Source: an uncultured beta proteobacterium
Lineage (GTDB): Bacteria; Pseudomonadota; Gammaproteobacteria; Burkholderiales; Rhodocyclaceae
Direction: 5' to 3'
NCBI GenBank assembly: GCA_903930395.1
Contig: CAIYYE010000263.1
Coordinates: forward strand, 1-12,495
DNA length: 12,495 nt
Below are positions 1,267-12,495 of the stretch, piece by piece (positions within the stretch are counted from its first letter, which is position 1; the number at the start of each line of letters is the position of its first letter). A program made the translations under genes and the position numbers. The notes under the pieces are model-generated. The model saw nothing but the letters and a program-made list of their open reading frames with translations. It made no database searches and was not told where the DNA came from.

Positions 1267-1791
1267 CTATTCGCTCTCTGTCGCCGGCCCGGTGGGCACG
1301 ACCGTGCCCAACTGCCCCTTCATCTGCAGTTCCAGTGCGCGCAATTTTTCAATGGCGCCGCGGGCGATATTGCGATAAATCCGAACGCCGATTTCCGGCC
1401 GAACGCTCAAGGCCTGTGCATTCAGGCGCACCAGGGTAGCGTTTGTCGCTGCCGTCACCGAAGCGCTGCGCGGCTCGTTGTCGACCACGCTCATCTCACC
1501 AAAACACTCCCCCGGTTTGAGGCGCCGCAACTCGGCCGACGTCCCCGGCCCCGTGCGCTTGCTGACTATCGCCTCGCCACCGATCAGGATGTACATGTAA
1601 CTGCCGACCTTGCCTTCTTCAACGATGAGGGCTTCCGGCTCAAAGACCTGCCGGTCGGCGAACTTGAACACCTCGGCTATCTCGTCGATCTTGAGGTCGC
1701 GAAATGCCGAGACGTTTTCTGCAATCTTCTTCAGCAAGACCTGCATGGCCGGGCTGAGAGTGGGCGTAGACAAGGGTGATGAACTGCTCAT
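1267..1791 (-). CDS. Stand-alone cyclic-nucleotide-binding (CNB/CAP_ED) domain protein
   Basis: This 174-residue, probably cytosolic protein is essentially one CNB domain (about residues 25-150) with a short Ser/Pro/Thr-rich N-terminus and a C-terminal helix. The phosphate-binding cassette at residues 97-112 reads [16 protein letters not shown]. Glu99 and Arg108 keep the nine-residue spacing of the ribose- and phosphate-contacting Glu and Arg in PKA regulatory subunits and CRP, so cyclic nucleotide binding is likely. There is no helix-turn-helix, kinase, channel or enzyme domain, so it is not a CRP-type transcription factor; it may act on a partner protein. The ATG at 1789-1791 is preceded by a weak GGGAAAA. 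Met16 is an alternative start. The gene is divergent from the adenylate cyclase and lies 43 bp upstream of selB. The link to cAMP is inferred from the domain and the neighbours. Confidence 0.85.
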
Positions 1792-1890
1792 TTTTGTTTT
1801 CCCGAGAAGATCAGGTCCGATCCGACACGATACCCGGAATCATAAACAGGGCTCGAAACTCGCGACACACTTATTTAAGAAATGCAAAAT

Positions 1891-1927
1891 CCAAAGCCAC
1901 TTTGGCATATAGTCTATTTGTCACAAA
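1891..1927 (+). promoter_or_regulatory. Putative promoter/operator of the adenylate cyclase gene
   Basis: The divergent gap is AT-rich compared with its surroundings. TATAGT at 1908-1913 is a good -10 match on the plus strand, but no good -35 element lies at the right distance, so activator dependence is possible. Just upstream is an inverted repeat, CCAAAG-CCA-CTTTGG (1891-1905). Just downstream is an 11-bp odd palindrome, TTTGTCACAAA (1917-1927). Both flank the -10 as operators often do. Transcription from this -10 would start near 1920, which favours translation from 1945 rather than 1882. This is pattern-based and unproven. Confidence 0.35.
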
Positions 1928-1944
1928 GCCACGCAAACCCAAGC

Positions 1945-4119
1945 ATGCAAAACAAGAACACCTCTCGTTGGCTATGGCTGCTGCCCCTGATTCCCGTGTT
2001 CGGCTCACTTCTGCTCGAGGTATTCGGGGCCGGCCCGCAGGAGATTTTACGCAACAACCTGTTCGACCAGTATCAGCGCTGGAAACCCCGGACCTATAGC
2101 GAAGCGCCCGTCAATATTATCGATATCGACGAAGAAAGCCTGACCAGGGTCGGCCAGTGGCCCTGGCCACGCTCACGGATGGCAGAACTGGTCGATCGTC
2201 TCACCCAATCCGGGGTCGCCTCCATCGGCTTCGATGTGATGTTTGCCGAACCCGACCGGACCTCGCCGAAAGCTGCCGCCGACCTGTGGCAGCTCACCGG
2301 CAAATTCCGCGCCGATCTGACCGCCCTGCCCGACCACGACGAGATCCTGGCCAAAAGCCTGAAGCGGGCGGATGCCGTCCTTGGGTTCGCCGTCGAACGC
2401 AACCAGAAGGCGCCACACAGCGACAGTCCGCTGAAGCTGCCCGTCAAGAAAGCCAATTTCATCACCCTGGGCGAATCGCAGACCCGCTGGCTGCATCCCT
2501 TCACCAGCGCCGTCCCCTCGCTTTTGCCGCTGGAAACCGCCGCCAAGGGCAATGGCGCCCTGACCTTCGTACCGGACAGCGATGGCGTCGTGCGACGGGT
2601 GCCCCTGGTCCTGCAACTGGCTGACGACACTATAGGCACGCTGACCAGCGAGTCGCTGCGGGTGGCTCAGGGTACGGCCGTCATTACGCTGCGCAGCGCC
2701 GGACACATCAACCACTTTACCGGGGATAACGACAACGGTGGGCTGGGTGAAATCCGCATTGGAGAAATCACCGTGCCGACGACTGCCAACGGTGAAATGT
2801 GGGTGCACTACACCCGGCACCGTCCCGAACGCAGCATCCCGGCCTGGAAAATCCTGGCTGGTGAAATTCCCAGAGAAGAAATCGAAGGAAAGATACTGCT
2901 CATCGGCAGCTCGGCGCAGGGGCTCATGGACTTGCGATTCAATCCCTTCGGCCTGATGGCCGGGGTCGAGGCGCACGCCCAGGCGCTCGAACAAATGCTC
3001 ACCGGCCAGTTTCTCGAGCGCCCGAGTTGGGCCCGTGGCGCCGAAACCGCGGTCATGGTGATCGGCGGCCTGCTCATCGGCCTGATTGCCCTGCGGGCGC
3101 AGGCCATCCTTGGCGCGGCCCTGTGCACGCTATTCGTCGGCGCGACGATGGGTGCCGGCTGGTACGCCTATGCCGAATACGGATTATTGCTCGATGTCGC
3201 CCTGCCCTCGATCGGCATCGCCCTCACCTTCACCCTCTGCAGCCTGGCCCACCACCTGTCCAGCGAGCGCGAACATCGCTGGGTCAAGGAAGCCTTTTCG
3301 CGTTACGTCTCGCCGAACCGGGTCGAACACCTGCTCGACAATCCGGAAGCCATGGCCCTCGGTGGCCGGCGCCAGGAGTGCAGCTTCATTTTTACCGACC
3401 TGGCCGGCTTCACAAGCCTCATGGAAAAAATCGATCCGGGCGAGGCGGTCGCCCTGCTCAACGACTATCTCGACGAAATGATCGCCATCGCCTTCAAGCA
3501 TGAAGGCACGCTCGACCGCATTGTCGGCGACGCTGTCGCCATCATGTTCTCAGCGCCGGTTTCCCAGCCCGACCACCGCGCCCGCGCCCTGGCCTGTGCG
3601 CTGGAAATGGATGCCTTCGCCAGCCAGTTTTCGAAAACCCAGCAGGAAAAAGGCATCGCCTTCGGCAAGACGCGCATCGGCATTCATGCCGGCGAGGTCA
3701 TTGTCGGCAACTTCGGCGGAAAGAACATTTTCGATTACCGGGCACTCGGCGACCCTATCAACACCGCTGCGCGGCTGGAAAGCGTGAACAAGCACCTGGG
3801 CACCCGCATGTGCGTTTCGGAAAACATCATGGCCGACTGCCCGGATGCCAGAGTCAGGCCGGTCGGTCGCCTGGTCCTCAAAGGAAAATCCGTACCCCTG
3901 GGGGTCTTCGAGCCGATCAGCCCCGACTTGGAAATCCTGCAGGCGCCGCTGGCCGATTACCAGGCTGCCTATGCCGCCATGCACGAAGAATCCACTGATG
4001 CCGCCGAGCGCTTTGCCCAACTCAAAGCCGCCTACCCCGACGACCCGCTGGTCAATCTGCACCACCAGCGCCTGCAGGCGGGTGAAAAGGGCGATCTGAT
4101 CGTGATGGCCGACAAATAA
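1945..4119 (+). CDS. Membrane-bound CHASE2-domain class III adenylate/guanylate cyclase
   Basis: Predicted to make cAMP from ATP at the inner membrane in response to an extracytoplasmic signal. The 724 residues run as follows: a membrane helix (about 9-27), a periplasmic CHASE2 sensor (about 30-355, opening with VNIIDIDEESL), three membrane helices (about 368-384, 387-406, 414-434), then the catalytic domain (about 475-645). Metal-binding Asp485 (FTDLAGFT) and Asp529 (RIVGDAV) are present, as are the transition-state pair Asn606 and Arg610 (INTAAR), so the enzyme should be active. The two base-selecting positions, Lys and Asp in textbook adenylate cyclases, are Arg525 and Arg599 here, so ATP as substrate is inferred. 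An in-frame ATG at 1882 would add 21 residues (745 in all), but that stretch is AT-rich, looks like promoter DNA and precedes the membrane helix. Neither start has a strong Shine-Dalgarno sequence. The phosphodiesterase gene follows after 10 bp. Confidence 0.92.
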   Translation: MQNKNTSRWLWLLPLIPVFGSLLLEVFGAGPQEILRNNLFDQYQRWKPRTYSEAPVNIIDIDEESLTRVGQWPWPRSRMAELVDRLTQSGVASIGFDVMFAEPDRTSPKAAADLWQLTGKFRADLTALPDHDEILAKSLKRADAVLGFAVERNQKAPHSDSPLKLPVKKANFITLGESQTRWLHPFTSAVPSLLPLETAAKGNGALTFVPDSDGVVRRVPLVLQLADDTIGTLTSESLRVAQGTAVITLRSAGHINHFTGDNDNGGLGEIRIGEITVPTTANGEMWVHYTRHRPERSIPAWKILAGEIPREEIEGKILLIGSSAQGLMDLRFNPFGLMAGVEAHAQALEQMLTGQFLERPSWARGAETAVMVIGGLLIGLIALRAQAILGAALCTLFVGATMGAGWYAYAEYGLLLDVALPSIGIALTFTLCSLAHHLSSEREHRWVKEAFSRYVSPNRVEHLLDNPEAMALGGRRQECSFIFTDLAGFTSLMEKIDPGEAVALLNDYLDEMIAIAFKHEGTLDRIVGDAVAIMFSAPVSQPDHRARALACALEMDAFASQFSKTQQEKGIAFGKTRIGIHAGEVIVGNFGGKNIFDYRALGDPINTAARLESVNKHLGTRMCVSENIMADCPDARVRPVGRLVLKGKSVPLGVFEPISPDLEILQAPLADYQAAYAAMHEESTDAAERFAQLKAAYPDDPLVNLHHQRLQAGEKGDLIVMADK

Positions 4120-4129
4120 GCCGTTTCTC

Positions 4130-4993
4130 ATGCCAAATTTCGACCTGACCAAGCCGCCTTTCAGCATTTCTCCGCAGCAAGCCGCTGATCGGGTTGCGCT
4201 CGATTTGGTCTCGGCCTTTGGCCTGATAGAACACATGCCCGCGCCACTGAGCCAAACCTTCGCCGCCATTCTGCAGGCCATCGGCGCCTCCGACAGTGAA
4301 GCGCTGGCCGTCGCCGGGAAGAACCTGGCCCGCGACATCGATGCCGGTGTCGGTGCCGGGATGGGCAATGGTTATCACAACCGCCAGCATTTCTGCGAAG
4401 TCATGCTCAGCGCCTGTTTCCTGTCCTTGCCGGAAGGACTGGCGATGGACGAACAACTCACGGTCGTCTTCGCCGCCATGGCGCACGACTTTCACCACGA
4501 TGGCAAGTTCAATGGCCCGACGCCTTTCCGTCTGGAGCGCCTGGCCTTCAATGAAGCCCGGCCCTACCTCGAAGCAGCCGGGATCAGTGCAGACCAGCAA
4601 GGGGAAATCGGGGCCTTGATCCTGGCGACGGATGTCATGCACGGTATTTCGGTGGCCAGAGCAAGCGATGCTTACCACCATGGACAAGGCCTTCGCCCGG
4701 AGATCCCGCCCGCCGCCCCTGAACTGGCCTTGCTCCTCGATGCTCGCAAACTGACCCGCATGGCCCTGCTGGTTTGCGAGGCGGACGTCCTGCCCTCAGT
4801 CGGGCTGACAGTCGATCATGCCTTGCAGGTTCAGGCTTGCCTGGCTCGCGAATGGGGCAAGCCGCTCTCCGTCGAAGACAAGGTCCGCTTCATCACGGAA
4901 TACTTTCCCGGATTCATCGTTGGCCATTTCTTCCAGGACAATGTCGCCCAAATCCTGCTATCCCTCGCGGAAAAGATGGCACCTAACCGATGA
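4130..4993 (+). CDS. Class I (eukaryote-type) 3',5'-cyclic nucleotide phosphodiesterase
   Basis: This 287-residue protein has no signal peptide or membrane segment, so it is probably cytosolic and hydrolyses cAMP and/or cGMP to the 5'-monophosphate. The class I PDE motifs appear in order: YHNRQH at residues 82-87 (His83 as general acid, His87 as metal ligand), HDFHHDGKFN at 119-128, which fits the class pattern HD-x2-H-x4-N (metal ligands His119 and Asp120), ATDVMHG at 166-172, and EAD at 217-219 with Asp219 as the likely last metal ligand. The 4-residue spacing of His83 and His87 equals that in mammalian PDE4. It is close to a bare catalytic domain, without the GAF or UCR regulatory parts of eukaryotic enzymes. 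The ATG lies 10 bp after the cyclase stop without a clear Shine-Dalgarno sequence, suggesting translational coupling. Its 3' end overlaps the convergent HD-GYP gene by 11 bp. The substrate is inferred from the cyclase next door. Confidence 0.85.
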   Translation: MPNFDLTKPPFSISPQQAADRVALDLVSAFGLIEHMPAPLSQTFAAILQAIGASDSEALAVAGKNLARDIDAGVGAGMGNGYHNRQHFCEVMLSACFLSLPEGLAMDEQLTVVFAAMAHDFHHDGKFNGPTPFRLERLAFNEARPYLEAAGISADQQGEIGALILATDVMHGISVARASDAYHHGQGLRPEIPPAAPELALLLDARKLTRMALLVCEADVLPSVGLTVDHALQVQACLAREWGKPLSVEDKVRFITEYFPGFIVGHFFQDNVAQILLSLAEKMAPNR

Positions 4994-7136
4994 ATTTGCT
5001 CACATCGACCTCGTCCATCTGTTCCGGTTTGAGGAAGCGCTCGGCGTAGTCGCGGTAAACCCCGGAAGTCAGGAAAAGGTCGAAAAGATCGGGGTCGATG
5101 TGCCTGTCCTTCTTGAAGAAGGACAGGATCTTCACCGACTCGGATAGGGTCTTGGCCTTCTTGTACGGGCGATCCGACGCCGTCAGGGCCTCGAAGATGT
5201 CGGCAATGGCCATGATCCGTGACGGAATGGACAGAGATTCCGCCGTCAGCTTGCGCGGATAGCCGCTGCCGATCAGGGTTTCATGGTGCGCCCCGGCATA
5301 TTCCGGGATGCGCTTTAGATTGTCCGGCAAGGGCAGTTGCTCGAGCATCATGATGGTCTGCACCATGTGCTCGTTGATCTTGAAACGTTCCTCTTCGGTC
5401 AGGGTGCCGCGGCCTATGGTGAGGTTGTAGATCTCGCCCATGTTGTACAGGTGTTCCGGCACTTTCATGTTGAAGCCGTATTTCGGGTCAAGCGCCTGCT
5501 TTTCCGGACGCGGCATGAGGTGATGTGGCCGGTCCGAGAGCAGGTTTTCCCGGGCCGGCAAGGGCTGTATGCCTTCTCCGTCGAAGCGCTTCAACTCCTC
5601 GTGGGCCAGGCCCAGGCGGTCATCGAAATTGCGGTCCCAGGTTTGTTCGGCGATCTGCTTGAGACGCTCGACCAGCGGTGGGGCCATGAATTCACCACCC
5701 AGATTGCACTCGGCAACAAAGGCGAAATCGTCCTTGAGCCTGGCCTGGCGCTCGGCAAAGCGTGCATCGGCGACGGCACGATCCACCCCTTGTTCGTGGA
5801 TAGCCTCCAAGCGCTCGATTTGCGCGTCGCGCAGGAGCACTTCAAAGCGCGTCCGCACCTCGTTGATGCGGTTGTTGATGGTTTCCAGCTTGGTCGCCTT
5901 GTCGACCACGTATTCGGGCATGGTCACCTTTCCGCAGTCGTGCAGCCAGGCCGCAATGCGGAATTCACGCCACTCATCGTCGGAGGTGAAGGCAAAGTCG
6001 GCCAGCGGACCTGAATCCGCCTGACTCGCCTGCTCGGCCAGCATGATGGCCAGTTCGGGAACGCGTTCGCAGTGGCCACCGGTGTAGGGACTTTTGGCGT
6101 CGATGGCGCCGGCAATCAACTTGATCAAGGCATCCATCAGCTCGCGCTGCGCCTCGACCAGCTGGAAGTTGTCCAGTGTCACGGCAGCCTGCGTCGCCAG
6201 ACCTTGCACAAAGTTGACGACGTCCGGCTTGAAGGTCGTCACCGCCCCGGTTTCCGGGTCCATGGCGTTGAGGAACTGCAGCACGCCGATAACCTTGCCG
6301 TCGCGCGGCGCCAGCGGAACGGTCAGCATCGATACGGTGCGCAGGCCAGAGGCTTCGCTGAACTTGATGGTGCCGCTCAGATCGAAGCGTGTTTCGCTAT
6401 AGACGTCATCGATGATGACGGCCTCGTTGTTCAGGGCGACATAACTCGAGACATAGCCGGTCATCGCCGCGCCGGTTTCCGGGTGATAGAGCGGCACCTC
6501 GAAATTGGGCAGTTCGTCGTCACTGGTGCGTACGGCAAAACGCAGGGTTTCGCGCTCGGTTTTGAGAAACAGGGTGCCGGCAGCGCAATTGGCGATCTCC
6601 CGGCCGCCCGAGAGAATCTTGTGGAGCAGCGCCATGCGGTCGCGCTCGCTGCCCATGCTGATGCCGAAATCGATCAGCCGCTCCAGCTTGCCCTGAACAT
6701 ATTCCAGAGCCTGGGTACGCTGGCGGACGCTGGCTTCGAGACGACGCGAATACTGCATGAGCTGGATGTGCGTCTTGAGGCGGGCGACAACCACGGCTTC
6801 GACGATCGGCTTGGCAATGTAGTCGACCGCACCCAGTTCGAAGCCCCGCGTCAAGTCCTCGACATCGCTGCGCGAGGTCAGGAAGATCACCGGAATGCTT
6901 GCGGTCAGCGGATTCTGCTTGAGCGTCCGGCAAACCTCGAAGCCATCCATGCCGGCCATGACGATATCGAGCAGAATGATGTCGGGCGGGCTGGCAGAGG
7001 CGGCAATGACCAGGGCAGACGCGCCATCCTGAGCCGTGACGACTTCATAGTCATCCTGCAGGATGGCCGAGAGAACCACCAGGTTGGAGCGTGTGTCATC
7101 CACCGCCAGGACACGAAATTTCGGTTTGGTCAGCAT
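4983..7136 (-). CDS. Response regulator with REC-GAF-HD-GYP domains (predicted c-di-GMP phosphodiesterase)
   Basis: This 717-residue cytoplasmic protein starts with a receiver domain (about 5-120). It has the acidic pocket Asp13/Asp14, phospho-acceptor Asp57 (LLDIVMAGMDG), Thr87 and Lys109 (KP). A coiled-coil linker (about 120-157) and a GAF domain (about 158-325) follow. The HD-GYP domain starts near 335: His355 (GGHCERV), His399-Asp400 in HDCGK, His617-His618-Glu619, and Gly625-Tyr626-Pro627 of the GYP signature. HD-GYP proteins hydrolyse c-di-GMP, so phosphorylation probably controls c-di-GMP turnover. About 217 residues separate HDCGK from HHE; the middle is charged, helical and Glu/Arg-rich, an insertion into the usual fold. 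The start follows a strong GGAGGAG (7146-7152), nine bases upstream and inside the last codons of the FecR-domain gene, six bases after whose stop it begins. It is the last gene of the exoprotein operon. Its histidine kinase is not in the window. Confidence 0.93.
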   Translation of the reverse strand: MLTKPKFRVLAVDDTRSNLVVLSAILQDDYEVVTAQDGASALVIAASASPPDIILLDIVMAGMDGFEVCRTLKQNPLTASIPVIFLTSRSDVEDLTRGFELGAVDYIAKPIVEAVVVARLKTHIQLMQYSRRLEASVRQRTQALEYVQGKLERLIDFGISMGSERDRMALLHKILSGGREIANCAAGTLFLKTERETLRFAVRTSDDELPNFEVPLYHPETGAAMTGYVSSYVALNNEAVIIDDVYSETRFDLSGTIKFSEASGLRTVSMLTVPLAPRDGKVIGVLQFLNAMDPETGAVTTFKPDVVNFVQGLATQAAVTLDNFQLVEAQRELMDALIKLIAGAIDAKSPYTGGHCERVPELAIMLAEQASQADSGPLADFAFTSDDEWREFRIAAWLHDCGKVTMPEYVVDKATKLETINNRINEVRTRFEVLLRDAQIERLEAIHEQGVDRAVADARFAERQARLKDDFAFVAECNLGGEFMAPPLVERLKQIAEQTWDRNFDDRLGLAHEELKRFDGEGIQPLPARENLLSDRPHHLMPRPEKQALDPKYGFNMKVPEHLYNMGEIYNLTIGRGTLTEEERFKINEHMVQTIMMLEQLPLPDNLKRIPEYAGAHHETLIGSGYPRKLTAESLSIPSRIMAIADIFEALTASDRPYKKAKTLSESVKILSFFKKDRHIDPDLFDLFLTSGVYRDYAERFLKPEQMDEVDVSKFIG

Positions 7137-7142
7137 GCCCGC

Positions 7143-7607
7143 TTACTCCTCCTCGACCGCCACGACAAACTGGGTACCGCGGACGCCTATCGTCCCGACC
7201 GGCGTATTCACCGAGACGACTTCCGGCTGCATCTTGGCGATCACGCCCGAAACGTAATTCAGGCTGCCCTTGGCCAGCTTGGCATTGAGCTTGAGCTTGC
7301 CTTGGGCCGGGTTGAACAGGTACTGATCGACCACCAGTTCGGTATTCGGCCCGAAGGACATCACCGTCTCATCCTTGAAGGTGACGCCCATGCTGCTGCC
7401 GCCGGCCGTTTTCAGGAGGCTGCCTTCGTAGACCGGCGAACCGATCTTGGCCTTGGCACTTTTGCCCTCGGTAATCACGAAAGCATCCCCGCTCACCGAT
7501 TTGACGAAGCCGATCTGGTCGGCGGCCTGGGCATTGACGGACCCGAACAGGAAAACAGTGGCCAGTGCCAGATCGCGAAGTTTGCGGATGGTGTAATGGC
7601 GATTCAC
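7143..7607 (-). CDS. Exported FecR-domain protein
   Basis: A 154-residue protein with a signal peptide (basic start, hydrophobic core LALATVFLFGSV, cleavage near AQA-A at 28/29) and then one FecR domain (about 35-150). The domain ends with the typical TPVGTIGVRGTQF at 135-147. Classical FecR is an inner-membrane anti-sigma regulator, but here the cytoplasmic and membrane parts are missing and no sigma factor is nearby. It is therefore probably a periplasmic or surface accessory of the exoprotein rather than an iron regulator; this role is inferred. The start is GTG at 7605-7607, five bases after the Shine-Dalgarno AGGGGG (7613-7618), which overlaps the stop codon of the exoprotein gene. The C-terminal Glu-Glu-Glu codons form the ribosome binding site of the next gene. 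It is tightly packed between tpsA and the response regulator, so it is co-transcribed with both. Confidence 0.88.
   Translation of the reverse strand: MNRHYTIRKLRDLALATVFLFGSVNAQAADQIGFVKSVSGDAFVITEGKSAKAKIGSPVYEGSLLKTAGGSSMGVTFKDETVMSFGPNTELVVDQYLFNPAQGKLKLNAKLAKGSLNYVSGVIAKMQPEVVSVNTPVGTIGVRGTQFVVAVEEE
7146..7152 (-). promoter_or_regulatory. Shine-Dalgarno site of the HD-GYP gene
   Basis: GGAGGAG on the minus strand lies nine bases before the ATG at 7136 and is formed by the last Glu codons of the FecR-domain gene. This near-perfect site suggests that the response regulator is efficiently translated from the polycistronic message. Confidence 0.65.
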
Positions 7608-7616
7608 GATAGCCCC

Positions 7617-10600
7617 CTAGCGACCTGTCGACTTGGGTTGTGCCTTCCGGGCACTGGAAAAATCCTGCTTCATCAGCTCAGACCCGACTTTTTGCGGCAG
7701 GGCAGAACCATCGAGTGGAACGCCGAATCCCGCCGATTCAACCACCTGCTCGCCCTTGGCGCCGGAAATGATGATCTTGCCGGTGGTGCCGTCGGCATTC
7801 TCGAGCAGCACGATGTAAGCGCGCTTGAAGCCGCTGACGACCGGCGGCCGGACCATGATGCCGGCGAGGACCTTGGCCTTCTTGGTTGTCGCTGGCGAAT
7901 CGCTCTTGGCATCGTCCTTCTTCTCGTCCGCACTGTCGGCCTCCTTGCTAGCCTCAGCTGCTGTTCCATCGCCGGAGGCAGCGTCAGCCGATTTTCCCTC
8001 GGTCGCCGGCGCTGCTGTCGTCGCGCTCTCCGCAGTCGCTGATGGCACTGAGGTCGAGGCGGCATCAGCCAGCATCGTCTGTTGCAGGGAAACGCTGGCC
8101 TGACTGCGACCGCTCACCGGGTCAGGCGCGGTGGCACTTGCGCTGGGTGCCGCTGGCGGCGTCAACGGTGCGGGCACGGTGGGTGAGATCGACAAGCTGC
8201 CATCGACAAAGCTGATCTGGTAATTCTGCGCCGTCAGACCTTGCGGCGAAATCGGATAGTTACCGGCATCGACTGCACCCTGGCTTGCGCCGGCATACCC
8301 GAGAACACCACCCAGGGCAGTGCTGTCTTCACCGCTGGCAAAGCCGGCATAGACAACGCCATTGCCACCGGCATAGGCCACACCATCGTAGACCTTGTTC
8401 GCTGCATTCGCCGTCACCGACAGCGGCGCCTTGTTCACTGTCAGTTCATTGGTGCTGGCTGCGTTATTGCTCAGGGCATAACCCAGACTGCTCGCCAGGC
8501 CGCTGGCGTAGGCCAGATCATGCGCCCCCGCCACAGGATGACCGGCACCCGACAGCCCCCCGCCTACCGTCCATGTGGCCGTGCCGCTGACGACATCCGT
8601 CGTCGTATCGCCATTGATATAGCCGCTGTAGCTGGCCAGAAGAAGCGGCAGGCTGCCACCATAGGTCATGGCCGTCGCGCCCGGCGCCACCGAAAGGACC
8701 GGTTGTTCGCGATAGATGGCAAACAGCCCGCTACCCAGCGACGCGGTGACATTGCTCGCTGTCTCGTCGCTGTTATAGCGGAAATGCCCGCTGCCGCTAC
8801 CGACCAGCGTGGCGAGGGAAGTATCCGCCAGGGCACCGGAATACAGCGTGGCGCGGCCACCCGTGCCCGTGCTGACGGTGGCGCTGACCATGATCAGGTT
8901 GCCGCCGCTCGCGGTGCCGGCCGCCGCATTTTTCCCGGCGTTGAGGACGATGGCCGAGGCGGAGGTATCGGTCGTCGACATATTGCCGGCTACCGTCATA
9001 TCGCCGCTACTGCTGGCGGCAATCGTCGAGGCGCTGGCAATGCCGTTCAGGGTGCTCACCCCGCTGTCGATGCTGACCGCACCGATGCGGTTGCCGGTGG
9101 TGCCGACGGCACCCAGATTCAACGTGCCAAGCGTATTGATCGTCAGCGCGGTAGCCGTATCCGCTGCCGAGATCGCACCCGTAGTGACATTCAAGGTTTC
9201 GCCACCGCCCAAGTTCAGCGATTTTCCGGCCGCCAGGCTGATCGCACCCAGATTCAGGACATCCGTGCCGCCCTGATCACCACGGATAGAAGCGTTGTCA
9301 GCAACTGTCAGCGTCCCGCTCGTGCCTGCTGTATTGCTGGCCACCAGCGCCCCGGCTGCTGCTGAGCCGGTACCGGCGATGCTGATATTTTCTGCCACGG
9401 TCACGCCATCCAGCCACAGCGTCGCACCACTGGCAACGGTCGTCCCGCCCGCCGTGCTTCCCAGGGCACTGGCATTCGAGACCTTGAGGATGCCCGCGCT
9501 GATGTCGGTCGCCCCGGTGTAGCTACTGGGGCCGGAAAGGGTCAGCATGCCCGTCCCGAACTTGTTCAGCGTACCGCCGCTGCTGGTCAGCCCGCTGGCA
9601 TAGCTCACGTTCTGGCCATTGGTATCGATATTGAAGGCTTGCCCGGCCGCTGTACTGAAGCGGCTTGAGTAGTCCGTCACGTTGCTGGCCGAATATTGCA
9701 GGGTGCCACCGCCGAAAGTCAGCGTTCCCGTTGTCCCGATCGCATTGGCCGAGCCCAGCATCAGGGTACCGGCATTGATCGTCGTACCGCTTGTGTAGGT
9801 ATTGGCCCCGGAGAGCAACAGGCTACCGCTACCGGACTTGGTCAGGTGGGCGGCGCCACCACTGGCATCATTCAGGGAGCCCGAGTAGGTCAGCGTCTTG
9901 CCGGCGGCGACATCGATATTGACGTTGCCGATCTGGCGCAGGTTTCCATTGATGACCGAATCAGCGCTCACCGTTATGCCCGAGGCGAAGGCAAAAATAC
10001 CCCAGTTCAGCCCATTCGCGCTGACCGTTCCGGTCGTCAGCGTGCCACCGTTCAAGGTGAAGTTGTAGAGGGTCTTTGAGTCACCGACCCCGATCAGCGT
10101 CCCGCCCTGGTTGACCGTGATGGCGGCGTGATCTGCCGCAGTGCCGCTGGCCCCGACCAGACTGTTATCGTTGGCCACCCCGGCCAGACCGGCCGTCAAG
10201 GTGCCGCCATTATTGATATTGATCGCCGTGGCGCTGCCCAGTCCGAGCTTGAGCGAAGAGAGGCCACCCGACGTGGCGCCATTGACCAGGACGGACTGGG
10301 CGATGTTCAAGACCCCGGTAAATCCCTGCGTGCCCAAAAAACTGACATTGCCGCTACCGCCCAGATTGACCGTACCGCCACCCAGCAATGCATAACTGAG
10401 CGGAACATTGCCGTTGGTGGTGTTGCCATTGAAATTCTGATTGGCCGAACTCGTCCAGTTGAGCACGGCACCGGTTGCCACGGTGGTCGCGCTGCTGCCA
10501 TTGAGGGTGCTGGCCCCGCCAATTTCCAGCGTCCCCGCACTGACCGTCGTGTTCCCGGTATAGCTATTGTTCCCGGCCAGCGTGAGTGCACCGCTGCCGG

Positions 10601-12269
10601 TCTTGACCAGACTCGTTCCGCTCCCTGAAACGACGCCGCTGTAGGTGCTGTTTCCACCCTGACTGATCGTCAGGACGCCGCCGCCGAGACTGAGATTACC
10701 GTTACCGGTCAGCCCGCCGCTGCCCGCAATCAGATCCAGCGCGCCGCTCGATGAGCGCGTAATGCCGGCATTGAGCACGATGCCGTTGGTGGCATTGAGC
10801 GTTAGCTTGTTGGTCGAGCTGTCGCTGATCGCACTGTCCACAGTGATGTTGCCGGTCTGGTTAGTGCCTGCCCCAGCCGTACTCACGGTTACGGCGCTGC
10901 CACTCAGGGCGGCCAGCAGCGTCGCGACATCGATAGAGGAAGAATCCGCACTGGCGGTAAATGTTCCGCCGCTATTGCCCGTGTTGCTGTTGGTCGCCGC
11001 AATTGTGATGTCGTAGGGGTCGATCAGCCATTGCCCCGTCTGGCCATACACCGCTCGGGTACTGACGCGCAGGCCGTCAAGCCGGACACTGTGGCCCGAG
11101 GTTTCGATCTTTCCGCCATCCCCTCCGGCGCTGCCACCTTCAGCCAGGATCTCGCCATGCACGCTGGTCAGGGAGTCTGGATTGCTCACAGCCGACCACA
11201 GCACCACCTTGCCGCCATCGCCCTGCTGCGTCGCGCTGGCATCAATGCGGGCGCCGCTTTCCATGCTGACGCGGGTTGCCTGATACAGCGTACCGCTGCC
11301 CTGCCAGTCGCCACCGACCAGCACCTGACCGCCGCCCGTGGCACCGCTGGCATCGATCCGGCTGGTCGAGGTCAGCGTAATGTCATCGCCGGTCAGCAGG
11401 ATGCGTCCGCCCTTCTCGACCAGACTGCTCGCCACCAGGCTGCCGCTATTGCGGACTATGCCACCCTGCAACTGGTTGGCTGCCCGTGCCGAAAGGATGA
11501 TCAGGCCGCCTTCGGCGAGTACGGCATGGCCGTTGTCGACCAGGGCATTGAGCGTGGCCGGTTCGACAATGACATTGGCCAGGGTGTTCTGGCCCTGAAT
11601 CTGCAATTCGTAGGCTTCGCCGGCCGCCAGCGCCACCGTGCCCAACTGGGCGAGGATGACGCCACGGTTACGGACTTCCGGCGCCAGCAAGGCGATGTAG
11701 CCGCCCAGCGCGGCTTTCAGTTCGCCTTCGTTGATGATGCTGCCGGTTGCCCCGTTGCGCTCGAACAGATAGCGTCCGGCCATGAAGTCGTCGTTGCCGA
11801 TGCGGTGCGTCGTCGCCACCAGCCCGCCGACATCGACGCTGGCTCCCGGCGCAAAGTACATGCCGTTCGGATTGGTGAAAAATACCTGACCGGGCGCCGT
11901 GATGCGCCCGTATATCTGGCTCGGGTTAGTGTCCAGCACACGGTTCAGCGTGACGCTGCCAGCCCCCTGCAACTGATTGAAATGGACCGCTGCCGCGCTA
12001 CCGACATTGAAGCTCGCCCAGTCGATGGCCGCCCGCTGCGTGCCTTGCGTCACGGTCATTACCGTGCCGGCCGATGTGATCGCCGCATTACCGGCGACGA
12101 CCTGAGCGCCCGTCGGCAATTGTCCGGGCAATGGCGGCGCCGCGTGCACGCAGCCCAGGGTCGCCAGCAGCAGGGCAAGCGGCTTCACGGCCATGCGCCT
12201 GGTCCGGCGGATAGCCGCGGGAGACGTATCGGGAGGGCGTCTCAGAACTGTTGACTGAGCGTTAGCCAT
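7617..12269 (-). CDS. TpsA-type filamentous haemagglutinin-like exoprotein with autotransporter-style beta repeats
   Basis: A 1550-residue secreted protein, probably a surface adhesin or matrix component exported by the TpsB transporter encoded upstream. It has an extended 43-residue signal peptide (Arg-rich start, LALLLATLGCVHA) and then the TPS secretion domain (about 45-290) with FTNPNGMYF (NPNG at 133-136). A beta-helical shaft follows, with GQWLIDPYDITI. Autotransporter-associated beta-strand repeats of the form LTLSG-x-YTG-x-T-x-I-x-AGTL lie near 554-585, 807-840 and 899-940. An MBG-like domain (about 1190-1277), a YDG domain (KVYDG, about 1278-1362) and an Ala/Ser/acidic linker (about 1363-1460) come next, then a C-terminal domain I do not recognise. 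No beta-barrel is present, so it is not a classical autotransporter. The chosen ATG has AAGGA (12276-12280) six bases upstream. A GTG at 12284 would add five residues. The start lies inside the tpsB end (28-bp overlap). Confidence 0.93.
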   Translation of the reverse strand: MANAQSTVLRRPPDTSPAAIRRTRRMAVKPLALLLATLGCVHAAPPLPGQLPTGAQVVAGNAAITSAGTVMTVTQGTQRAAIDWASFNVGSAAAVHFNQLQGAGSVTLNRVLDTNPSQIYGRITAPGQVFFTNPNGMYFAPGASVDVGGLVATTHRIGNDDFMAGRYLFERNGATGSIINEGELKAALGGYIALLAPEVRNRGVILAQLGTVALAAGEAYELQIQGQNTLANVIVEPATLNALVDNGHAVLAEGGLIILSARAANQLQGGIVRNSGSLVASSLVEKGGRILLTGDDITLTSTSRIDASGATGGGQVLVGGDWQGSGTLYQATRVSMESGARIDASATQQGDGGKVVLWSAVSNPDSLTSVHGEILAEGGSAGGDGGKIETSGHSVRLDGLRVSTRAVYGQTGQWLIDPYDITIAATNSNTGNSGGTFTASADSSSIDVATLLAALSGSAVTVSTAGAGTNQTGNITVDSAISDSSTNKLTLNATNGIVLNAGITRSSSGALDLIAGSGGLTGNGNLSLGGGVLTISQGGNSTYSGVVSGSGTSLVKTGSGALTLAGNNSYTGNTTVSAGTLEIGGASTLNGSSATTVATGAVLNWTSSANQNFNGNTTNGNVPLSYALLGGGTVNLGGSGNVSFLGTQGFTGVLNIAQSVLVNGATSGGLSSLKLGLGSATAININNGGTLTAGLAGVANDNSLVGASGTAADHAAITVNQGGTLIGVGDSKTLYNFTLNGGTLTTGTVSANGLNWGIFAFASGITVSADSVINGNLRQIGNVNIDVAAGKTLTYSGSLNDASGGAAHLTKSGSGSLLLSGANTYTSGTTINAGTLMLGSANAIGTTGTLTFGGGTLQYSASNVTDYSSRFSTAAGQAFNIDTNGQNVSYASGLTSSGGTLNKFGTGMLTLSGPSSYTGATDISAGILKVSNASALGSTAGGTTVASGATLWLDGVTVAENISIAGTGSAAAGALVASNTAGTSGTLTVADNASIRGDQGGTDVLNLGAISLAAGKSLNLGGGETLNVTTGAISAADTATALTINTLGTLNLGAVGTTGNRIGAVSIDSGVSTLNGIASASTIAASSSGDMTVAGNMSTTDTSASAIVLNAGKNAAAGTASGGNLIMVSATVSTGTGGRATLYSGALADTSLATLVGSGSGHFRYNSDETASNVTASLGSGLFAIYREQPVLSVAPGATAMTYGGSLPLLLASYSGYINGDTTTDVVSGTATWTVGGGLSGAGHPVAGAHDLAYASGLASSLGYALSNNAASTNELTVNKAPLSVTANAANKVYDGVAYAGGNGVVYAGFASGEDSTALGGVLGYAGASQGAVDAGNYPISPQGLTAQNYQISFVDGSLSISPTVPAPLTPPAAPSASATAPDPVSGRSQASVSLQQTMLADAASTSVPSATAESATTAAPATEGKSADAASGDGTAAEASKEADSADEKKDDAKSDSPATTKKAKVLAGIMVRPPVVSGFKRAYIVLLENADGTTGKIIISGAKGEQVVESAGFGVPLDGSALPQKVGSELMKQDFSSARKAQPKSTGR

Positions 12270-12495
12270 AGCCTGTCCTTGCACAGCGAACCGTCCTGAT
12301 CATTGCCCGTCGCGGTCGAATTCGGGTTGTCACCGATCCGCCGCGACCAGGTCGACTTGAAGGCCAGCCCACCCTTCGTTTGCCAGCCGAGCGCCAGACC
12401 GGCACCTTGCAGGCTGATCTTGTTCACGGCCGCAGCACCGACAAAATCATTGTTGCGATTGACCCTGACCTGACCGACATCGTAAAACCCGGTCA
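12242..12495 (-). CDS. TpsB outer-membrane transporter, ShlB/FhaC/HecB family (C-terminal part; rest beyond window)
   Basis: The reading frame is open from the right edge to the TGA at 12242-12244 and encodes the last 83 residues. They match the end of two-partner secretion transporters: a beta strand TGFYDVGQVRVNRN, then LQGAGLALGWQTKGGLAFK, the WSRRIGDNPN motif and GNDQDG, and a final strand ending WLTLSQQF with the C-terminal Phe typical of outer-membrane barrels. TpsB is a 16-stranded barrel with periplasmic POTRA domains that exports its TpsA partner. The POTRA part lies outside the window. Because the gene is cut at the edge, a search limited to complete reading frames would see only a 61-codon piece starting at an internal GTG (12427); that is not the real start. 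The downstream tpsA gene overlaps this end by 28 bp, so the pair is translationally coupled. Confidence 0.88.
   Translation of the reverse strand, partial: TGFYDVGQVRVNRNNDFVGAAAVNKISLQGAGLALGWQTKGGLAFKSTWSRRIGDNPNSTATGNDQDGSLCKDRLWLTLSQQF
12276..12280 (-). promoter_or_regulatory. Shine-Dalgarno site deciding the tpsA start
   Basis: AAGGA on the minus strand lies six bases before the ATG at 12267-12269 and inside the tpsB coding region. It supports that ATG over the upstream GTG at 12282-12284, which has no comparable site. Confidence 0.6.

Follow-up and report, generated by a model that had tools for sequence, protein, structure and literature searches.

In the usual textbook view, cAMP in bacteria forms a single pool whose reader is CRP. 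In Campylobacterota, a CHASE2 adenylate cyclase, a phosphodiesterase, an FecR outer-membrane protein, and a TPR protein are encoded in a cluster, and the authors proposed that they act in one pathway (PMC9239204). In S. meliloti, cAMP synthesis by CHASE2 cyclases increases in response to a plant protein that is sensed via an outer-membrane protein (PMC13001267). In the same species, the CHASE2 cyclase CyaD1 and the CRP-family regulator Clr act together, and cyaD1 is located near clr; SMc02177, a protein with an FecR domain, was not needed for the perception of the plant signal (PMC5498481). The BiofilmReg operon of Burkholderia encodes a LysM-FecR protein and a CHASE2 histidine kinase (PMC5192318), and Bd1971 of Bdellovibrio is a cAMP-controlled EAL c-di-GMP phosphodiesterase (PMC6717892).

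The DNA analyzed in this study (12,495 nucleotides; hereafter, the window) is one entire contig (G000:C263) of a draft genome, which is 88% complete and consists of 645 contigs. A selB gene, which is on the minus strand and truncated at the contig edge, precedes the gene of the putative reader, a single-domain cyclic-nucleotide-binding (CNB) protein of 174 aa (1267..1791, minus strand). The gene of the putative maker, a CHASE2 class III nucleotide cyclase (1945..4119, plus strand), is divergent from the CNB gene, and the gene of the putative breaker, a class I-like (PDEase_I fold) cyclic nucleotide phosphodiesterase (PDE) of 287 aa (4130..4993, plus strand), follows 10 bp 3′ of the cyclase end. 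The genes and their domains confirmed this arrangement as it had been described in the original prediction. The 3′ end of the PDE gene is overlapped by 11 bp by a gene on the opposite strand, encoding a response regulator-GAF-HD-GYP protein of the c-di-GMP phosphodiesterase type (4983..7136, minus strand; PF00072, PF01590, and PF13487). This gene forms a minus-strand run with the genes of an FecR-domain protein (7143..7607; PF04773, 39 bits) and a two-partner-secretion exoprotein with TPS, PATR, and MBG_2 domains (7617..12284; PF05860, PF12951, and PF18676), in which the genes are 6 and 9 bp apart, respectively. Being on the strand opposite to the cyclase, these three genes need not be co-regulated with it.

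The window resembles the Campylobacterota cluster in that a CHASE2 cyclase, a phosphodiesterase (for cAMP in that cluster), and an FecR protein are encoded together; in contrast to the window, the available text on that cluster mentions neither a CNB reader nor an HD-GYP protein in it, refers to CRP only in general, gives no PDE class, and places a TPR protein where the window has the LLE domain described below (PMC9239204). The S. meliloti cyaD1-clr-smc02177-smc02178/NsrA locus likewise combines a CHASE2 cyclase with a nearby cNMP reader and FecR gene (PMC5498481, PMC7529298), and the outer-membrane receptor upstream in that system was counted as a further likeness (PMC7529298, PMC13001267). 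However, its reader, Clr, is a transcription regulator (PMC5498481), and the S. meliloti pSymB cyclase analyzed here has Lys at the base site. BiofilmReg shares with the window the pairing of an FecR protein with a CHASE2 sensor, but its output is a histidine kinase and a response regulator, with no cyclase (PMC5192318). The CNB domain of Bd1971 is a non-transcriptional cAMP reader, as we propose for the window, and there controls c-di-GMP (PMC6717892), whereas the window CNB has no output domain attached; in our analysis, a CNB-EAL gene was located 26 bp downstream of a related cyclase (L063). No paper describing the gene combination of the window was found in a literature search that, beyond the cited papers, was made at overview level. 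With moderate confidence, we regard the locus as an envelope-triggered cyclic-nucleotide signaling module, of a known general kind with a new combination of parts.

The window CNB matched PF00027 with 67.9 bits and contained the Glu and Arg of the phosphate-binding cassette (GEM...PRSA), as expected for a cNMP-binding domain, and the cassette was aligned with those of the CRP of the same genome and the CNBs of the neighbor loci. PF00027 was its sole Pfam family; no HTH was found, and the protein was thus not assigned to the CRP/FNR transcription factors, whereas the CRP of the same genome yielded HTH_Crp_2 in the same kind of Pfam scan. The original prediction had viewed this protein as a non-transcriptional receptor; its non-transcriptional build and intact cassette agree with this view, and its role as a receptor is one that we infer from them. 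Relatives of the CNB were found at nine places at 36% or more identity, and the best four that were fetched shared 43–47% identity with it. In the regions covered, eight of the nine, no class III cyclase was present beside these nearest relatives (8/8 regions from 7 genomes), which was counted against the module reading.

Besides this locus, the genome of the window has a gene for a CRP-type protein (L099) in which an HTH is present and the cassette is intact, and it encodes two further class III cyclase-domain proteins; class I CyaA was not found in the 88% complete draft. A single reading frame encoding both protein kinase and CNB domains was also observed in this genome (L007:1315-2328). 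The separation of the unit from the global CRP/Cya system, as proposed in the original prediction, is putative. Because of the CRP-type protein and the two additional cyclase-domain proteins, a common cAMP pool is possible: the cyclase and PDE of the window would feed and drain an ordinary pool read by the CRP-type regulator, and the CNB would be a minor or unrelated neighbor. The working of CyaD1 with a CRP-family regulator in S. meliloti (PMC5498481) and the location of the closest CNB relatives away from any cyclase are in line with this explanation, which we consider possible but doubtful in view of the CNB linkage described below.

The PDE scored 18.2 bits against PF00233, below the cutoff of 24.8, and is therefore called class I-like here rather than a member of PF00233. 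Class I PDEs have a two-metal His/His/Asp/Asp site, an HNxxH motif, and an invariant purine-binding Gln. The motifs YHNxxH, HDxxHxG, and ExD were invariant in 12/12 aligned homologues, as were H83, H87, H119, D120, and D219, which provide the His/His/Asp/Asp residues of a two-metal site, and the fold model had the class I PDE catalytic fold. The candidate explanation that the third protein is no phosphodiesterase, raised by its being missed in the Pfam and PDB sequence searches, was rejected on the basis of this model.

This PDE was rare: among 300 genomes from the order, 4 had a match, which in two of them was a distant relative, and in the class sample it was found in 1 of 369 genomes, namely that of the window itself; a plasmid search with the PDE gave no match. 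A scan of a named genome collection yielded ten PDE loci, including the third match of the order, Quisquiliibacterium (L027). Among the 11 loci consisting of the window and these ten, seven had a CHASE2 cyclase or its remains (the window, L019, L020, L023, L024, L026, and L027), and one was a contig of 3.2 kb with an OmpA-type neighbor (L021). No class III cyclase was seen in L022, L025, and L028, and these three of the 11 loci were counted against the module reading. L023 and L024 are closely related to each other. In both, the cyclase gene was broken, with several frames and a large internal gap, next to an open PDE gene. It is conceivable that the three genes are each useful on their own and lie together by chance, the draft genome being rearranged; the window is a whole contig of such a fragmented draft, and the trio as such is rare. 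Nevertheless, the 10 bp spacing, the joint occurrence of make, break, and read functions also in L027 and L019, the linkage of CNB and FecR genes to the cyclase, and the seven PDE loci with a CHASE2 cyclase or its remains all argue against chance, which we regard as very improbable.

Distant relatives of the PDE (L017:518-1366 and L018:8211-9038) were about 30% identical to it in part of the sequence and 22–27% identical over the alignment. A sensor kinase is encoded nearby in L017, and chemoreceptors in L018. In L017, a class III cyclase domain with 44% identity to another cyclase encoded in the genome of the window lay about 3.7 kb from the PDE relative; no class III cyclase domain was found in the 17 kb around the relative in L018. 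A class II-type PDE was present in 13 of the 15 genomes searched, including both of the same genus, and absent from the draft of the window. That the class I-like PDE took the place of the class II type is only a possibility, because Quisquiliibacterium carries both types.

The cyclase scored 197 bits for CHASE2 (PF05226) and 65 bits for Guanylate_cyc (PF00211), both above the cutoff, and was classified as a CHASE2 class III cyclase. A start at 1945 gives an N terminus equal in length to those of the relatives, for example in L060; the alternative start at 1882 gives a longer reading. With the former start, the divergent intergenic region extends over 1792..1944. It contains a perfect 6-3-6 palindrome, CCAAAG-CCA-CTTTGG, at 1891-1905, between the CNB and cyclase genes, and this could be an operator. 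A scan of the window allowing up to 2 mismatches revealed no CRP-like site in this intergenic region. CRP control of the divergent promoter was rejected: the sole CRP-like match in the window was located at 4989-5004, and 3.73 matches were expected by chance. A sigma-70 scan of 1700-2050 gave 0 sites.

In class III cyclases, two Asp residues bind metal and an Asn/Arg pair acts at the transition state, and canonical adenylyl cyclases in this class recognize the base by a Lys/Asp pair. The motifs FTDLAGF, RIVGD, and INTAARLE of the window cyclase contain the two metal-binding Asp and the transition-state Asn and Arg. At the base site, Arg replaces Lys while Asp is kept, and the enzyme was therefore not classed as a canonical adenylyl cyclase. 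In the tree, 19 cyclases with this Arg (R-type) formed one clade with a support of 1.0, and the 25 other CHASE2 cyclases carried Lys. A 451-aa HD-like protein, HDx, was encoded directly upstream of R-type cyclases (L024:5928-7283, L026:4413-5768, and L064:1666-3021). No Pfam family was found in the two copies of HDx scanned, and its structure model was poor (pLDDT 43.8); HDx is perhaps another breaker.

The distinctness of the R-type clade raises the alternative that these cyclases make a nucleotide other than cAMP, for which the PDE and CNB would be specific, so that the module would be insulated from CRP. Consistent with this, the three plasmid cyclases examined, those of S. meliloti pSymB, Ensifer, and P. 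aminophilus, also had Lys at the base site, and CNB genes clustered with the R type. However, the change from Lys to Arg is conservative, the base-site Asp was kept in the R-type sequences read, the class I-like PDE was missing from the vicinity in 15 of the 17 R-type genomes retrieved with the cyclase, and the window CNB cassette resembles that of the CRP of the same genome. We therefore consider this alternative quite unlikely.

The FecR protein, which had a signal-peptide-like N terminus as judged by eye, is a putative periplasmic input partner of CHASE2. About 65 aa at the C terminus of the exoprotein matched the N-terminal part of small OmpA-domain proteins adjoining the cyclase in relatives, with 50% identity to that of L090; ten of these sequences were aligned, and several of these OmpA-domain proteins had a lipobox-like Cys, again as judged by eye. 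Because of this match, the exoprotein, the FecR protein, and the cyclase are likely to constitute one envelope-sensing set. The matching segment is a short domain (LLE.DG.TG...), termed the LLE domain, observed at 7617-7820 in the window and in the OmpA-type genes of L020, L026, L027, L060-L062, L090, L094, and L095. It is thus common to the C terminus of a secreted exoprotein and OmpA-domain proteins encoded beside FecR and CHASE2 cyclase genes.

A search that used just the cyclase matched 11 of 300 genomes of the order, 5 of 369 of the class, and 8 of 101 of the family, and removal of overlaps left 21. Within 8 kb of the cyclase, FecR was found in 17, the LLE domain in 13, CNB in 7, HD-GYP in 6, and the class I-like PDE in 2 (the window and Quisquiliibacterium) of the 21 genomes; these counts are lower bounds because contigs were short or cut: L067 and L068 are only about 5 kb long, which leaves little flanking sequence, and a number of further contigs end on one side. 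R-type cyclases were present in 17 of the 21, with FecR in 16, CNB in 7, and the class I-like PDE in 2 of these 17. The rarity of the PDE near the cyclase, which also counts against the module reading, and the absence of class III cyclases beside the CNB relatives contradict a conserved adjacency of the exact trio, a check named in the original prediction. Its view of a self-contained unit was not borne out either, as linkage to the cyclase was more frequent for FecR and LLE-domain envelope proteins than for CNB or PDE, and for HD-GYP it was about equal to that of CNB.

The 21 genomes contained 285 CNB domains, of which 0.71 were expected and 7 were found within 5 kb of the cyclase, about ten times the expectation (Poisson 1e-5; 8e-5 for 6/20 without the window; genomes treated as independent). 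These seven neighbors were the lone CNB of the window, CNB-NTE-patatin proteins (L027 and L062), a CNB-EAL protein (L063), a 371-aa CNB protein (L060), a CNB-protein kinase (L088), and a CNB protein without other Pfam families (L096). The patatin gene of L062 was located 20 bp upstream of the cyclase gene, the EAL gene downstream, the L060 gene convergent, and the L088 kinase gene 2.5 kb off. The L088 CNB did not have the cassette Arg. The L060 protein (L060:7456-8571) had a C-terminal part of about 200 residues without a Pfam match. An eighth neighbor, the CNB-CBS-DUF294 protein of L061 (PF00027, 32.8 bits), was left out of the count. The seven genes are neither built nor oriented alike, which suggests that CNB genes were recruited beside the cyclase more than once. 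Their varied architecture at this enrichment, and the absence of Pfam HTH families from all seven, argue against a pool read by CRP alone with the CNB as a bystander.

As a control, the Lys-type CHASE2 cyclase of L019 was used to search 101 family genomes (E <= 1e-80), of which 46 matched, including two cross-hits to the genome's own R-type gene (G000 and G730), and 20 regions (L131-L150) from 20 of these 46 genomes were read. The Lys-type cyclase adjoined a metallo-beta-lactamase-fold protein in 20/20 regions; the one scanned, from L131, scored 44 bits for PDEase_II (cutoff 23.7). HD-GYP was present in 20/20 and a CNB protein in 16/20 regions, that of L131 being CNB-rhodanese, whereas tblastn (1e-6) gave no match to FecR, LLE, or the class I-like PDE in the 20 regions. 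The family operon was ordered CHASE2-kinase, PP2C, FHA, Lys-type CHASE2 cyclase, class II-type PDE, CNB-rhodanese, GspE, and GAF-HD-GYP. It links genes for cAMP, Ser/Thr phosphorylation, and c-di-GMP. Like the window, it combines make, break, and read genes with HD-GYP in one gene run; unlike the window, it has a Lys-type cyclase, a metallo-beta-lactamase-fold PDE, and a CNB fused to rhodanese. No publication describing this operon was found in the literature search. The predicted domains showed it to be a further make-break-read cassette, assembled from different components. CNB linkage is therefore not special to the R-type clade, and the 16/20 do not represent 16 independent events, because the operon looks inherited within the family. 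The Lys-type operon occurred in 1/8 R-type genomes versus 43/93 others, with the two 101-genome family samples taken as the same draw on account of recurring genome identifiers; exclusion of this operon by the R-type cyclase was not supported, the difference not being significant (Fisher p 0.13).

A plasmid search yielded 609 records with a similar cyclase, three of which were looked at. On pAMI5 of Paracoccus aminophilus, CNB-patatin (opposite strand), TPR, FecR, and cyclase genes were side by side; Ensifer sp. PDNC004 had TPR, FecR, cyclase, and MBL hydrolase genes, with SulP-STAS-CNB about 2 kb on; and FecR adjoined the cyclase on S. meliloti pSymB. L019, from a betaproteobacterial MAG, mixed the builds, with a Lys-type cyclase, the class I-like PDE, and SulP-STAS-CNB. 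The joint presence of make, break, and read genes was thus confirmed, and such cassettes recur in other builds in L027, L019, and the class II-type PDE operon of the window's family. From the predicted proteins, the design recurs with breakers of class II, metallo-beta-lactamase type, and with CNB-patatin, CNB-EAL, CNB-kinase, SulP-STAS-CNB, and CNB-rhodanese as readers.

For the envelope-triggered module, we propose the following steps. The FecR protein and the LLE-bearing exoprotein would signal the state of the surface or envelope to the cyclase in the inner membrane via its CHASE2 domain in the periplasm, although the dispensability of SMc02177 for plant signal perception in S. meliloti argues against FecR as an obligatory input (PMC5498481). 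The cytoplasmic domain, identified as class III, would then make a 3′,5′-cyclic nucleotide, most likely cAMP, given that the base site retains its Asp despite the exchange of Lys for Arg. The PDE, with its class I fold and metal residues, would destroy the signal nearby, keeping the pulse short or local. The CNB, through its intact cassette, would bind the nucleotide and act by protein contact rather than DNA binding. Its likeliest target, and the least certain step, would be the neighboring response regulator-HD-GYP enzyme, in which case the module would act by altering c-di-GMP and, with it, adhesion or biofilm. The CNB-EAL fusion beside the L063 cyclase, HD-GYP near six of the 21 cyclases, and Bd1971 (PMC6717892) point to such a c-di-GMP output.

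The overall interpretation in the original prediction was therefore supported in part: co-location, the lack of an HTH, and the recurrence of the design speak for it, and the conservation of the exact trio and its self-containment do not. What is new is the combination: the recurring make-break-read design here has an Arg-type cyclase and a class I-like PDE, and it lies beside envelope proteins that the original prediction had not included. Loci that pack a sensor-cyclase, a dedicated PDE, and a non-transcriptional reader make local bacterial cyclic-nucleotide signaling directly testable, and breakers and readers recur interchangeably among such loci. The swapped outputs (phospholipase, c-di-GMP phosphodiesterase, and kinase) are candidate effectors, and the FecR and LLE proteins linked to the cyclase are candidates for the input of CHASE2. 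R-type CHASE2 cyclases may even represent a private-messenger branch, whose nucleotide is kept from CRP by identity or location, acts on swappable CNB effectors (lone CNB, phospholipase, c-di-GMP phosphodiesterase, or kinase), and is removed here by a class I-type phosphodiesterase. We consider this unlikely; if true, it would be a bacterial counterpart of compartmented cyclic-nucleotide signaling at the envelope.
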